Part shown: one piece after another, positions 2 to 13,355 of the stretch
How positions within the stretch are numbered: position 1 is the stretch's first letter
Layout of the letters: each line of letters opens with the position of its first letter
NCBI GenBank assembly: GCA_947505565.1
Contig: CANNLB010000007.1
Span: forward strand, 1 to 13,355
Reading direction: 5' to 3'
DNA from: Acidobacteriota bacterium
Lineage (GTDB): Bacteria > Acidobacteriota > Terriglobia > Bryobacterales > Bryobacteraceae
DNA length: 13,355 bases
The notes under the pieces: model-generated
What the model was told of the DNA's origin: nothing
What the model saw: the letters and a program-made list of their open reading frames with translations, nothing else
Databases searched by the model: none
Position numbers and translations under genes: made by a program

Positions 2-622
2 CGAATTGAATCGGGTGAGTGTATAGGAATCACCGGCCCCACAGGATCGGGGAAGACGACGTTGCTGAGTCTGCTGAAGAGATTCTACGATGTTCATGAC
101 GGCAGCATCCGCCTCGATGGCGTCGAAGTCCGCTGCCCCCTTGCCGGAGAGCACCAATGGGAGAACGCCCGCACCGCGGCCCGGGTCCTCCGACTCCGCG
201 GCGTGCCCCTCGCCGGCATGGCCACCGCCGTTTGGCCCGGCCGCCTGGAACGCGTCAGCCGCCATCCCGAGATCATTCTTGATGGAGCACACAACCCTGC
301 CGGAGCCCAAGCCCTCGCCCGCTACATCCAAAAGTTCCACCCCGGCCGCCGCATTGGCATGATCTTCGGCACAATGCGCGACAAGGCTTTCGAGGAGATC
401 ACCTCCATCCTCTTCCCCGTCGTTGACGAACTCATCTGCACGGCCCCCGACCAGGCTCGCGCTCTTCGGCCCGAAGCGATTCTCGATCTCGCCCCTCATC
501 CCAACGCCCGCGCCGCCGAAAATCTCTCCGCCGCCCTGGTGCTTCCTCGCCATTGCGACGTACTTTTCATCACCGGTTCACTTTACCTAGTAGGAGAGGC
601 GCGGGCTCTCCTCGTACAATAG
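2..622 (+). CDS. folC: Chimeric ORF: ABC ATPase start joined to FolC C-terminal domain (5' partial)
   Basis: The frame is open from the left edge. Its first ~40 codons read as the start of an ABC-transporter nucleotide-binding domain, with Walker A GPTGSGKT at 35-58 and then LLKRFYDVHDGSIRLDGV, as in MsbA-type exporters. From about 128 it reads as the end of folylpolyglutamate/dihydrofolate synthase: PLAGEHQWENA, WPGRLERV, the Mur-ligase motif DGAHNP, FGTMRDK and a closing FITGSLYLVGEARAL. FolC adds glutamate to folates in the cytoplasm. The ABC part lacks Q-loop, signature and Walker B, and the FolC part lacks its own P-loop and central domain, so neither enzyme is complete. Both halves share one frame, joined near VEVR. 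It lies 18 bp before the acyltransferase gene. It could be a true fusion by deletion or a contig misjoin; the two domain identities are much surer than the fusion. Confidence 0.7.
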   Translation, partial: RIESGECIGITGPTGSGKTTLLSLLKRFYDVHDGSIRLDGVEVRCPLAGEHQWENARTAARVLRLRGVPLAGMATAVWPGRLERVSRHPEIILDGAHNPAGAQALARYIQKFHPGRRIGMIFGTMRDKAFEEITSILFPVVDELICTAPDQARALRPEAILDLAPHPNARAAENLSAALVLPRHCDVLFITGSLYLVGEARALLVQ

Positions 623-2949: not shown

Positions 2950-3365
2950 TTCAGCGATTAAGTAAATCGCGTCTGATTCAGAACGAACCAAAGGAGGATC
3001 AGACTGGTCGGCATACCCAACGGATAAGCGCCTAGATACTTTGTATTCAAAGACCTCTAGAGAGAGGATCGTTTCCGCCCTGTAACTGTTCCCAGCGATT
3101 TCCCAAAGAGTTCGAGCAGTCACACGAACCGGTGCCAAGCTATTCTGCGGCAGAAACTGCGCAGCCTCCGCCGGTTTCGAACCAGTCGCCACCCCGGCCG
3201 GCAACAGACCGACCAAGTCAATCCCCTTCACAGGCAGCAGCTCGCTCATCCGTTGGATCGCGATCTCGGCCGCCTCCACCGCACTGATATCGGGCCGCGC
3301 CTGCCTGCACGGCCAATTCAAACTGGGGGCCCAACTCCTGATAGACCCCGGAGAAGGAGCGACGA
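2950..3365 (-). pseudogene. Unassigned coding remnant, possibly the end of a GspK-like pseudopilin
   Basis: I do not recognise this securely. The minus strand reads SGVYQELGPQFELAVQAG in one frame, then, after a one-base shift near 3300, PDISAVEAAEIAIQRM and on to SLAPVRVTARTLWEIAG and NSYRAETILSLEVFEYKV. The order (a YxxLxPxxT-like segment, a short alpha-helical repeat, then a beta-rich RVTARTxxxxGxxYRxE tail) resembles the C-terminus of type II secretion minor pseudopilin GspK, but similarity is weak and no other secretion gene is in the window. Third codon positions are AT-richer than in the neighbours. The frame continues without a stop into the PPOX-like pseudogene, which suggests a deletion joined the two. 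The 5' part also overlaps the upstream region of the plus-strand S4 gene. Confidence 0.28.
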
Positions 3366-6876: not shown

Positions 6877-8865
6877 TCAAACCGAACTATATATTGCGAC
6901 GGTCGTTGAACGAGCGCCATTGACTTGGCCAAAATCCGCAGCGCCGGTGGTGAGGCCGGGAGCCGAGAACTGGGGCGTAATCGTGATGTTATCGGCCTCA
7001 GCGCGGAACTGGATCCGGATCTTCTCGACGACGGTGAAGTGCTTCGAAAGGCTAACATCGGCGAGGTGCGTGCCGTCGACTCGCTGGTTCGGCGTGCACC
7101 GGGGCGCGTTGCCGAGGGTGAACGGCGCGGGGGAGGAGACCGCACTGGTGTCGAACTACTCCGAAGGAGTCCGCTCGGCGACTTGGGCGTTCAGGATCGA
7201 GAAGCCGCGGGTAGCGAGCGAGTTCGGGGCTTCCAGCTGCTTTCGGCATACTTGCGGCCCTTGCCCACCGGTACTTCGCAAAAGACTGTTCCGGAAAAGC
7301 TATGGGGCACGTCGCGGAAGCTCTTGCGGTACTTCAAATAGAGCGCGTTAAAAGATGAGGTCGCACCGGGGGTGTCACCACTGAGTTCCACCGTGTTGAA
7401 CTGCGAGCACGGGCGGAGCAGGCGAGGGCGCGGTAGAGTGCGCTCGATGACAACGGGTTCACGTTCATGTGGCCGCTCAGGTTGAGCTTGCGACCGAGGA
7501 CACCAGAGTAGCCGACTTCGAGCACGCTGCCTTGGCCGAGTTTGAACTGGAGGTCGTAGGAGAAATTCTGGGCATGGCCGGTGGTGCGCAGCCGCTGGAC
7601 GGCGGTGACGTCAGAGCCCGTTTGGATAAACAGTCCGCGGGACAATCCCATCGGGAAAGGGTTCGCCAGCAGGTCCTGCGGGGTGATGCCGTCGCCGCCG
7701 GCGTGGAGCGCGTTGCAGCAGGCTTGTCGATACAAGATGCCGTAGTCAGCGCGGGCGACGATGCGGGGCGCCAGATCCATCGGATCACGCTTTTAGCCCC
7801 AGGCCCGTCGATTGGCTGAGCGGGTTACGAGCGTTGTAGTCGAAGCGGTTGTAGCGGCTGTACCGCTCGGTGCGGGCCGCTGCGGTTCCCACCGGAGACC
7901 GGCGTTGATCGTGAGACGCGACGAAAAGCGCCAGTTGTCCTGGATCTGGAGGCCGTAGTATTTGGCCAGCGGTGCCGATGCCTGTGCCGAGCAGAGGCGA
8001 AGCGACCGAGTTGCCGGAGTTCGCGCTGGAGACGGCAACGTTGGGGCCGGAGGTCATCCCGCGGTCGAAGGCAGAATCGGTCGAGCGAATGTCGATCGAG
8101 TTCAAGTAGGAGTTCTCAAGGCTGAAGCCGAACTTCAGACTGTGTTTGCCGAGCTCGCGGGTGGGGTTGAGCCGGGCGTTATCGGTGCGGCGTGGGAAGT
8201 TTAGGATGCGGCCGTTCGACAGCGTGGCGTAGTCAGACACTTTGAACTGGGGCATGTGCGGTGAATCCATCTGGGAAACGACGTTGGCGGGGAGCCCTAA
8301 CGTAGTGCCGCGGATGCCGTCCCGCAGGGTAACCGGCAGGGACTCTTCGCGCCAGCGACCGCTACCGGCCGTGCAGTTGATGACGAGCTTGGGCGAGGGG
8401 ACCCAGGTGGTGCCGAAGGTAGCGGCGTAGCGGGGTGTGATGCCTTCTTGCTCGGCGTACGTCACCCGACTATACATCGTCTATTTTTGCTCTTGGCTCA
8501 ATCGATACGCCAGCTGGAGGTGCCGGCGCCGAAGCAGTTGTTGGCGTTGGTGGGCATGGCGCCAACGGCATAGAAGCGGGACCGGGGAATCGTATTGTAC
8601 GGGAAGCTATCGCGGACGAAGCCCGAGCCGGAGAGGTTGGCGGGTGTGGAGAAGGGATTGATGATCAAGGCGCTGGAGCCATCCGGATTGCGGGTGAACG
8701 AGAAGCTGCCGCCACGCTCGGCGTCGGTAGGTAACGTTTGGGTGGTGGTGGCGGGTGAACCCGACTTCGGAATTTCGTAGGTGCTGAGGAAGAAGAGGCG
8801 CTTCGACTTCGAGATGGGGCCGGAGAGGTTACCGCCGAACTGGTTGCGTTGAACCTCGACGCGGG
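6877..8865 (-). pseudogene. Oar-like TonB-dependent outer-membrane receptor, decayed and 5'-truncated
   Basis: Pieces of an Oar/CarboxypepD_reg-type receptor follow in order on the minus strand over three frames: NQFGGNLSGPI and LFFLSTYE (near 8845-8775), PTDAERGGSFS, YSRVTYAEQEGITPRYAATF (from 8477), ELGKHSLKFGFSLE, KYYGLQIQDNWRFSSRLTIN (near 7950), TERYSRYNRFDYNARNPLSQ, ARADYGILYRQA, NPFPMGLS, VLEVGYSGVLGRKL, SSFNALYLKYRKSF, DVPHSFSGTVFCEVPVGKGR, FDTSAVSSPAPFTLGN and a full C-terminus with DVSLSKHF and IQFRAEADNITITPQFSAPG to TGA 6877-6879. Such receptors take up large substrates through the outer membrane. Lesions: frame breaks or deletions near 8490, 7961, 7874, 7788, 7418 and 7240, an in-frame deletion near 7325, and TAG at 7156-7158 where WFDT is expected. 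The signal, carboxypeptidase-like domain and most of the plug are absent. About 2 kb remains of a usual 3 kb or more. Confidence 0.88.
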
Positions 8866-11562: not shown

Positions 11563-12582
11563 ATGGAACGAGAGTATACGAGAAGAGCGCTGCTGGGCAT
11601 CGTAGCGGCCGGAACGGCTACGGCGCAGACGGCCACCCCACGGGATTGGTCGGACCAGAACCCGATTCAGTATCCGGACCCGGACGTGAGAGCACTCGAC
11701 GATCGCTTCCGGAAGTACATGATCGGGAACGGCAGCATGAAGCGCCTCCACATCGGAACCTCCTGGGCCGAGGGGCCCGCTTGGAATGGAGTCGGGAAGT
11801 ACTTAGTTTGGAGTGACATTCCAGCCAATGTGCAGATGCGCTGGATCGACGACGACCGGCGCGTAACGGTCTTCCGGAACCCGGCGGGCTACAGCAACGG
11901 AAATACTTTTGACTACCAGGGGCGACAACTATCGGCCGAACATGGCGGTCGGCGCGTGGCGCGCTATGAGCAAAACGGCACCGTTAGCGTGATCGCTGAC
12001 AAGTTCGAAGGCAAACGCCTGAACTCGCCCAATGACCTGGTCGTGCACCCGGACGGCAGCATCTGGTTCACGGACCCGCCGTACGGTATCAACGGCGACT
12101 ATGAGGGATACAAATCGCCGAAAGAGTTGAAGGAGGCTGTCTACCGTGTCGACGGCAAGACGGGGCAGATTGCGAAGGTGACAGACGCGGTAAGCGCCCC
12201 GAACGGGATCTGCTTCTCGCCGGACTACAAAAAACTTTACGTGGCCGACACCGGGGCCGCCGGACGAGACTTAAAGGTTTGGGACGTCAACGGCGCAACC
12301 CTGCAGAACGGCAAGCAGCTCGCGGCTTTGACGATCCCCGGGTCGAACACCGTCACCGCGGCGGACGGCATCCGCTGCGATGTCGATGGCAACATCTGGG
12401 CCGGAGCGAGGCCTGGCGTACAGATAGTAACGCCACAAGGCGAGCGCATCGGGGCCATCTATCTACCCGAAAACTGCGCCAACGTCTGCTTCGGCGGACC
12501 ACGGCGAAACCGGCTCTTTATGACCGCGAGCCAGTCGCTCTATGCGGTGTACGTCAACACGACCGGCGCCCATATCTGCTAG
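11563..12582 (+). CDS. SMP-30/gluconolactonase-family exported beta-propeller lactonase
   Basis: The 339-residue protein starts with a Tat-type leader: twin arginines in TRRALLG (6-12), then a hydrophobic stretch ending near ATAQ. The propeller carries the expected metal ligands: E70 in AEGPAW, N157 in NSPNDLVV, N214 in APNGICFSP and D268 in AADGIRCDVDGNIW, matching Glu18, Asn103, Asn154 and Asp204 of SMP-30. NTFDYQGR, WFTDPPYGI and CANVCFGG are further family blocks. Such enzymes hydrolyse sugar lactones such as gluconolactone; the natural substrate here is not shown. Tat export suggests it folds with metal before crossing to the periplasm. It is full length and undamaged. The neighbouring divergent hydrolase suggests a shared role in using plant or sugar esters, which is inference. 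Confidence 0.9.
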   Translation: MEREYTRRALLGIVAAGTATAQTATPRDWSDQNPIQYPDPDVRALDDRFRKYMIGNGSMKRLHIGTSWAEGPAWNGVGKYLVWSDIPANVQMRWIDDDRRVTVFRNPAGYSNGNTFDYQGRQLSAEHGGRRVARYEQNGTVSVIADKFEGKRLNSPNDLVVHPDGSIWFTDPPYGINGDYEGYKSPKELKEAVYRVDGKTGQIAKVTDAVSAPNGICFSPDYKKLYVADTGAAGRDLKVWDVNGATLQNGKQLAALTIPGSNTVTAADGIRCDVDGNIWAGARPGVQIVTPQGERIGAIYLPENCANVCFGGPRRNRLFMTASQSLYAVYVNTTGAHIC

Positions 12583-12641
12583 CGCCGCACATAACCATGA
12601 AGAGGGGTGCGTCGCCCACCGGCGCGATGGACCTCGTCCGA

Positions 12642-13136
12642 TCAGGCCTGGACGCCGGTGGAGTCGATCCACCGGTTGTAGAAGTGGAACAAAGCACAAC
12701 CGGTAATCGCGCAGTAAATCTGCTCGCCGTGATCGACGGCGACGCCGGGTTCACCTGGTCGAGGAAGCGGAACAGCGATTTTTCGGCCGGGGTGAGGGTA
12801 AAGTTTCCGAAATCGGCGAGCACCGCCTGGACCGCTTCTTCACCGCCGAGCAGGACCGCCGCGGTCGCGGCGTGGGACTTGCTTCAAAACGGGTAGTGAT
12901 TCCGGGCGGAGGTGAACGCGGCGATCAGTTCGCGCAGCCCAGGCCAGAGCGGCGCCTCCCTGTGGATGATCTCGTGCGTAAACTTGGCCAGGTGTTCGGT
13001 CGCCTGCGGCTTGAACGCAAAAACAATGCCGGATTTACGGGTATTCGGCTCCACCCTGTACCATGGCGGCGATGGAATGGGCATAGGGCCCGGGCACGGG
13101 GTCTGCTTCCACGTCGGGTAGGAAAAGCGGCTCCAT
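12642..13136 (-). pseudogene. AhpD-like peroxidase-related protein with TGA at the second active-site Cys, frameshifted
   Basis: The minus-strand ATG at 13136 opens MEPLFLPDVEADPVPGPY…GGAEYP, which ends in TAA at 13036-13038. A one-base shift gives GIVFAFKPQATEHLAKFTHE, then GLRELIAAFTSARNHYPF, TGA (12884-12886) and SKSHAATAAVLLGGEEAV, TPAEKSLFRFLDQVN. A last shift near 12735 gives EQIYCAITGCALFHFYNRW and IDSTGVQA before TGA 12642-12644. This is the carboxymuconolactone-decarboxylase/AhpD fold, a thiol peroxidase or reductase partner. In AhpD the motif is E-x11-C-x2-C-x3-H; here E, 12 residues on Tyr (TAC), three on TGA, four on His, exactly in register. About 15 residues before EQIY and the usual tail after GVxA are absent. 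The gene lies 12 bp after the epimerase gene. It is probably dead unless the shifts are sequence errors. Confidence 0.78.
12857..12872 (-). promoter_or_regulatory. Candidate bacterial SECIS hairpin downstream of the in-frame TGA
   Basis: Eleven bases after the TGA, the minus strand can fold CGCCGC-GACC-GCGGCG: six GC pairs closing a four-base loop that starts with G. Bacterial SECIS elements have a short apical loop with a G in its first positions about 16-37 bases after the UGA; here the loop begins 18 bases after it. In such GC-rich coding DNA, short hairpins also arise by chance, so this is supporting evidence only. Confidence 0.4.
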
Positions 13137-13148
13137 ACACGGTCAAGA

Positions 13149-13355
13149 CTAGCATCCCAATCTGCTCGCGAGCGCCAACTCCTGCGCGCGCCTCTCTCGG
13201 CGGGCCCCCTCCGGCAGTGTCTTCGCAATCTCCGCTACAGACTCCCGCCAAGGCGTATACACCATCCCTAACTCCCGCTTACTCCTGCTGTTATCCACCG
13301 CCGACATCCACCGCCCGCTGAAGGGAGAGCAGTCCAGCATCAGCCCCGCGGCTTC
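13149..13355 (-). CDS. C-terminal end of an NAD-dependent epimerase/dehydratase (5' part beyond the window)
   Basis: The frame enters from the right edge and ends at TAG 13149-13151. It contains SPFSGRWMSAVDNSRSKREL, LGMVYTPWRESVAEI and RRERRAQELALA, the C-terminal pattern of extended short-chain dehydrogenase/epimerase proteins, in which VDNSRxKRELGxxYTPxxExL belongs to the substrate-binding lobe. The Rossmann nucleotide-binding part lies outside the window. These enzymes modify nucleotide sugars or reduce related carbonyls; which one cannot be told. It precedes the AhpD-like pseudogene by 12 bp on the same strand, so the two were probably cotranscribed. Nothing in the visible part looks broken. 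Confidence 0.75.
   Translation of the reverse strand, partial: EAAGLMLDCSPFSGRWMSAVDNSRSKRELGMVYTPWRESVAEIAKTLPEGARRERRAQELALASRLGC

Follow-up and report, generated by a model that had tools for sequence, protein, structure and literature searches.

AhpD-like proteins that carry selenocysteine (Sec) in a CxxU motif are an already known kind of selenoprotein. A 2026 review has an 'AhpD-like protein, TIGR01926, CxxU' among its entries (PMC13188914), and AhpD-like COG2128 is entered as a CxxU selenoprotein in PMC9312934; these two entries bear out the statement, made in an earlier sequence-only reading of the DNA studied here, that Sec-type AhpD-like proteins are known. Earlier counts include 27 AhpD-like selenoprotein genes from the Sargasso Sea in the part of PMC1088965 concerned with them, and 299 of the type AhpD-like 1 from GOS samples in the corresponding part of PMC2398784. 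For Acidobacteria, the relevant passage of PMC1794560 gives 4 selenoproteins of 3 families and does not tie AhpD to them, and the acidobacterium Occallatibacter riparius is credited in PMC12013277 with 3 known selenoprotein genes, with AhpD not named in the passage concerned. Our literature search for selenoprotein pseudogenes in bacteria yielded one paper, which concerns vertebrates.

Here we analyzed a stretch of 13,355 bases, hereafter the window, which is a whole contig (C7) of an acidobacterial genome bin. We conclude, with a probability of about 0.94, that the window holds a recently inactivated AhpD-like selenoprotein gene; what was lost seems to be the gene and not the Sec trait.

An AhpD-like locus with an in-frame TGA

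The bin from which the window comes (G000) is fragmented, with 3.53 Mb in 640 contigs and a completeness of 58.9%. The AhpD-like (TIGR01926-type) selenoprotein pseudogene occupies positions 12579..13136 of the minus strand, from an ATG at 13134-13136 to a final TAG at 12579-12581, and lies less than 800 bases from the contig end. It was delimited by codon-by-codon comparison with intact sister genes and by syntenic blastn alignment to the acidobacterial MAG LacPavin_0419_WC53_MAG_61_8 (L066), the closest record found. Blastn of the terminal 1900 bases of the window (minus strand) against L066 gave a single block of 1940 columns with 89.1% identity; its two gap openings correspond to the two frameshifts in the window gene. 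Since the alignment forms one syntenic block, the window gene and its neighbours are orthologous to those of L066. Upstream, the 3' part of another gene (13173..13355, minus strand) differs from L066 at 24 of 183 bases with its frame unchanged; its L066 counterpart is an open frame of 325 aa that, by eye, looks like an NAD-dependent epimerase. The convergent neighbour, an intact SMP-30/gluconolactonase-like gene of 1020 bases (11563..12582, plus strand; Pfam PF08450), is 92.8% identical to its L066 counterpart with 0 gaps and served as the control gene.

The TGA at 12884..12886 (minus strand) stands within family sequence, with ARNHYPF before it and SKSHAATAAVLLGG after it. The spacing is exactly that of AhpD, E-x11-(Y)-x2-(TGA)-x3-H, with Glu 69, Tyr 81, TGA 84 and His 88 when the codons are numbered as in the intact sister. 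The first active-site position, a Cys in 80/80 named relatives examined, is TAC (Tyr) in the window (12893..12895, minus strand), and the Cys of the redox pair is lost, as had been read from the sequence alone. The window copy has the TGA at the second active-site position and the Glu and His at AhpD spacing, and lacks both the Cys three codons before the TGA and an otherwise open frame. Against TIGR01926 (cut-off 81.8), three intact relatives scored 98.8, 95.9 and 103.5 bits and the read-through piece of the window 40.7; against Pfam CMD (cut-off 23), the same piece scored 20.8 and the relatives 37.6-44.3. The two bare fragments flanking the TGA gave no Pfam family. When the damaged read-through was used as a protein query, only 3 proteins matched, and the printed sequences of two of these (P0003 and P0004) stop right before the Sec site.

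Codon-by-codon comparison placed four further lesions in the window copy, all on the minus strand. A TAA at 13035..13037 replaces the relatives' Gln codon and is a premature stop ahead of the Sec site. A T-rich run (13022..13025) has gained one base, and 40 bases are deleted with the junction at 12728..12729; both changes, of ambiguous placement, shift the frame. A TGA at 12642..12644 replaces a Leu codon of the relatives; unlike the TGA of the Sec site, it is a plain nonsense lesion. Both frameshifts had been noted before and were confirmed; they sum to -39, so that the original frame is restored at the 3' end. The TAA, the TGA at 12642-12644 and a change in a hairpin loop had not been noted earlier.

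Two other parts of the window are irregular. In the single open frame at positions 2-622 (plus strand), the beginning of an ABC-transporter ATPase domain is fused to the C-terminal domain of a Mur ligase, and this end of the contig may be an assembly chimera. On the minus strand, 7334-8920 matches the outer-membrane beta-barrel family PF25183 only in the piece 7785-8477, which is flanked on both sides by further open frames in other frames; this region could be another pseudogene, or else the assembly may be at fault here.

Probable selenocysteine use in the genome and its relatives

We searched 101 genomes, including that of the window, with a read-through protein carrying Cys instead of Sec at the TGA column, so that Cys forms were not disfavoured by the search. 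Matches were obtained in 45 genomes; by hand count, the best match had an in-frame TGA in 39 of them (one also with a TAA) and had no stop or a TAG in the other 6. Across the 101 genomes, selB scored over its cut-off in 84 and tRNA-Sec in 92, with a hit at E <= 1e-11 in 86; hits to tRNA-Sec that score near 50 bits are probably in part tRNA-Ser. Within the 39 genomes that carry the TGA gene, selB was over the cut-off in 31 and tRNA-Sec reached E <= 1e-11 in 34 (hand counts), and neither was found at these thresholds in G000, G023 and G063. Among the 31 genomes searched for selA and selD, these scored over their cut-offs in 29 and 28, respectively.

The genome search proposed at the outset for selA, selB, selD and selC was answered in part for the genome of the window: selA was found (447 bits against a cut-off of 268), and, in a bin that is 58.9% complete, no hit for selB, selD or tRNA-Sec exceeded its cut-off. 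A search for AhpC/TSA-type proteins had 13 matches in the same genome. One of them, on contig C51 (L191/L195), has a TGA at 1222-1224 in the motif SADW-TGA-PYC (UxxC) and is open over 485 codons apart from that TGA. The gene encodes an N-terminal domain followed by a Prx-like domain with the SADW-TGA-PYC motif, and its protein matched NCBIfam peroxiredoxin and SelL-related redox models only below their cut-offs. Of 61 genomes, 43 had related sequences, with 47 such places listed; one in-frame TGA occurs in 43 of these places, and 4 lack it, one of them not covering the column. That the TGA falls in the same column was confirmed in 4 places, its own included.

Changes on each branch were counted by codon position (1/2/3). 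For selA, the counts were 3/4/37 on the window branch and 8/2/19 on the sister branch. The C51 gene had 17/8/35 against 3/2/40 in its sister, and its codon-position pattern differed from that of the dead gene (p = 0.004); its excess of first- and second-position changes on the window branch may point to a degree of relaxed selection.

These data bear on the best-surviving alternative, namely that the gene died through a lineage-wide loss of Sec use. The missing selB, selD and tRNA-Sec and the larger number of replacement changes in the C51 gene on the window branch would agree with it. Against it, selA is intact and strongly constrained (3/4/37), the second TGA gene is open but for its TGA, and the bin in which the three components were sought is far from complete. 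Because a constrained selA and an open UxxC gene remain, the loss looks gene-specific. We regard loss of the whole trait as unlikely, and, as far as these sequences indicate, the decay does not seem to stem from it; judging by these two genes, Sec coding as such seems to persist in the organism.

Within the genus (G001-G018), the TGA gene is patchy, being present in 9 of these 18 other members and without a match at E <= 1e-3 in 9; selA is kept in 16/18, and selB and selD score over their cut-offs in 15/18 and 16/18. The selD gene itself has an in-frame TGA in 15 of the 16 members over the cut-off (e.g. L181-L183), G003 being without one, and the SelD of this genus is a probable selenoprotein. 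A CMD-family protein on contig C162 of the window's genome (L194) was considered as a possible Cys replacement of the dead gene and rejected, as its sequence, judged by eye, is that of another CMD protein (VSAINACDKCVDSHEK).

Decay of the window copy

With L067 as outgroup and L066 as the sister, the AhpD-like gene accumulated on the window branch 14/14/11 changes at codon positions 1/2/3, with 29 amino-acid changes, and on the sister branch 0/1/18 with 1 amino-acid change. The SMP-30-like neighbour showed 3/1/29 and 4/1/19 on the same two branches. Changes at positions 1 and 2 of the window branch thus made up 28 of 39 in the gene against 4 of 33 in the neighbour (Fisher p = 3e-7), a contrast that points to lost selection rather than to general sequence error.

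The alternative that faulty assembly or consensus calling near the contig end produced the lesions in what is really an intact selenoprotein gene draws on the position of the gene (less than 800 bases from the end of a contig, in a bin of 640), and the other end of the contig may be a chimera. Errors of this kind would not be expected to leave the flanks free of indels relative to the sister, where the 1020-base neighbour aligns with 0 gaps and the frame upstream is unchanged, nor to abolish the codon-position bias in the gene while keeping it in the neighbour. We therefore hold assembly error to be very improbable. The lesions and the loss of codon-position bias support the earlier suggestion of a gene caught after inactivation, and the comparison supports the view that the window copy is a relic, a dead orthologue of an intact sister with 89% DNA identity. 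In the window lineage, selection on the gene was lost and lesions accumulated, with the Sec codon not yet mutated.

The TGA column, its hairpin and known families

Among the other loci fetched, 29 of 29 had TGA at the same position and Cys at -3. In a scan of named genomes, of which the best 80 of 275 relatives were kept, both the TGA and the Cys at -3 were present in 80 of 80, and the frames continued past the TGA to a stop at 194-209 aa; the 29-locus and 80-locus sets overlap, and several contigs are evidently identical (e.g. L017 and L066, of equal length). A TGA common to all 80 examined named relatives is a feature far above chance. In the set of 29, L044 diverges from the family near its C-terminus and the start of L045 was not recovered by the pattern used. 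The titles of the 80 loci are mostly acidobacterial, several of them Bryobacterales; a few are MAGs titled Gemmatimonadetes, Chthoniobacterales, Cyanobacteria or Proteobacteria, which may have been placed in the wrong bin or given the wrong name. Another of the 80, Roseisolibacter sp. H3M3-2 (L141), has an NZ_ accession.

Cys forms were found farther off. When 396 genomes of the phylum were searched, 62 had matches at E <= 1e-20; L151, L152, L154 and L156 were stop-free among the high-scoring loci, and the three of them that were inspected read C-E-F-C. A protein search returned 1936 database proteins, and a motif search of the 120 that were listed gave the pairs C..C (91), C..W (21) or others (7), with no motif in 1. 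The C..W proteins are evidently TGA translated as Trp, and the first six of them have JGI as their source. Trp at the Sec site thus occurs in public protein sets, for example in P0005, P0007 and P0008 (21 of the 120 listed).

The predicted GC hairpin that begins 11 bases past the TGA, with a loop starting with G, was confirmed at 12857..12872 (minus strand). This SECIS-like relic keeps its 6-bp stem, and its loop, GACC (12863-12866), is absent from all 80 named relatives, whose loops are GGTC (44), AGTT (32), AGGT (3) and GGGT (1). The apical pair, formed by two third codon positions, is G..C in 44, A..T in 35 and G..T in 1 of the 80. Covariation was measured in 51 of the 80 named loci (match starting at locus position 3001, equal spacing, some near-identical loci dropped), where 99.2% of cells were paired. 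Changes on both sides were seen in three pairs, which 2 of 500 shuffles reached, and in 27 cells, which 0 of 500 reached, as was the case for the covariation score of 0.208; the loci are related and shuffles therefore overstate significance, a fault from which versions of the hairpin slid by 1-3 columns are free, and sliding destroyed the signal. One of five covariation measures, the number of further pair types, showed no excess (137 of 500 shuffles reach it). In five single-sequence folds, stability did not exceed that of shuffled sequence (z from -1.19 to 0.37), and the signal over shuffles comes from covariation only, not from single-sequence folding. Bacterial SECIS elements have an apical loop with G and U that is read by SelB. 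As judged from these alignments, the covarying hairpin fits a bacterial SECIS element within the coding region.

An ordinary nonsense change from TGC to TGA in a Cys-type AhpD gene could appeal to the distant Cys forms and to the other nonsense codons of a copy that is a pseudogene anyway. Yet all close relatives examined have TGA with an open frame onward (29/29; 80/80), the hairpin behind it covaries, and conservation of the TGA in 80 of 80 intact named relatives led us to reject this explanation, which we consider scarcely credible. The opposite pattern named beforehand, that of close homologues having only Cys and a genome without selA, selB and selC, did not appear: the relatives carry TGA and selA was found. 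A reading of TGA as tryptophan (code 4) in this lineage could draw on the Trp at the column in 21 of the 120 listed database proteins, which evidently comes from code-4 gene calls. It was rejected as extremely improbable: 7 of 29 relatives terminate the same gene with TGA, stop-free homologues commonly have Cys, and the relatives have Sec machinery and a hairpin that covaries.

The idea of a Sec codon in a decaying selenoprotein gene is consequently supported, with the TGA shared by the relatives and the lesions carried by the window copy. In the relatives, the gene would encode a protein of ~198 residues with a Cys-x-x-Sec pair, and its UGA would be read through by SelB and tRNA-Sec with the help of the hairpin 11 bases downstream. 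Family membership suggests a thiol/selenol peroxidase of AhpD fold, the redox centre of which would combine the CxxU pair with the conserved Glu and His. A wider reading, which we favour with some reserve, is that of a gene-specific loss in mid-decay in a Sec-using bacterium, the Cys and SECIS loop gone and the Sec codon kept, within a large and partly mis-called acidobacterial CxxU clade whose members are truncated or read with Trp in public sets. The stop codon that a gene caller would score as a lesion is here an original active-site feature surviving in a dead gene. Together with an intact sister of 89% DNA identity and the same neighbours, the dead copy offers a clean setting in which to study the loss of a selenoprotein gene under apparent retention of the trait. 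Selenoproteins of the TIGR01926-type CxxU family are, moreover, widespread in acidobacterial genomes.

With respect to known systems, the find is a neat instance of a gene lost in the ordinary way from a selenoprotein family that is already known. The models NF041238 (AhpD_rel_CFYUT) and NF041047 (GSU3128), both given as CxxU in the list of PMC13188914, match the same AhpD core; however, the protein of L017 is not a member of either, as its scores (35.7 against 175 and 17.2 against 110) are far under the cut-offs. The AhpD peroxidase-related structures 2oyo, 6k40, 3c1l, 2pfx and 2prr are related in sequence to the L017 protein (E values from 1.3e-15 to 5.4e-12), and 2oyo, in the one alignment shown, has Cys where the L017 protein has Sec. 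Like the AhpD-like CxxU selenoproteins described before (COG2128 / TIGR01926), the intact relatives have a CxxU pair, followed downstream by a hairpin. Unlike in the earlier surveys of these proteins, the family was followed here in Acidobacteriota, and the window copy is dead.
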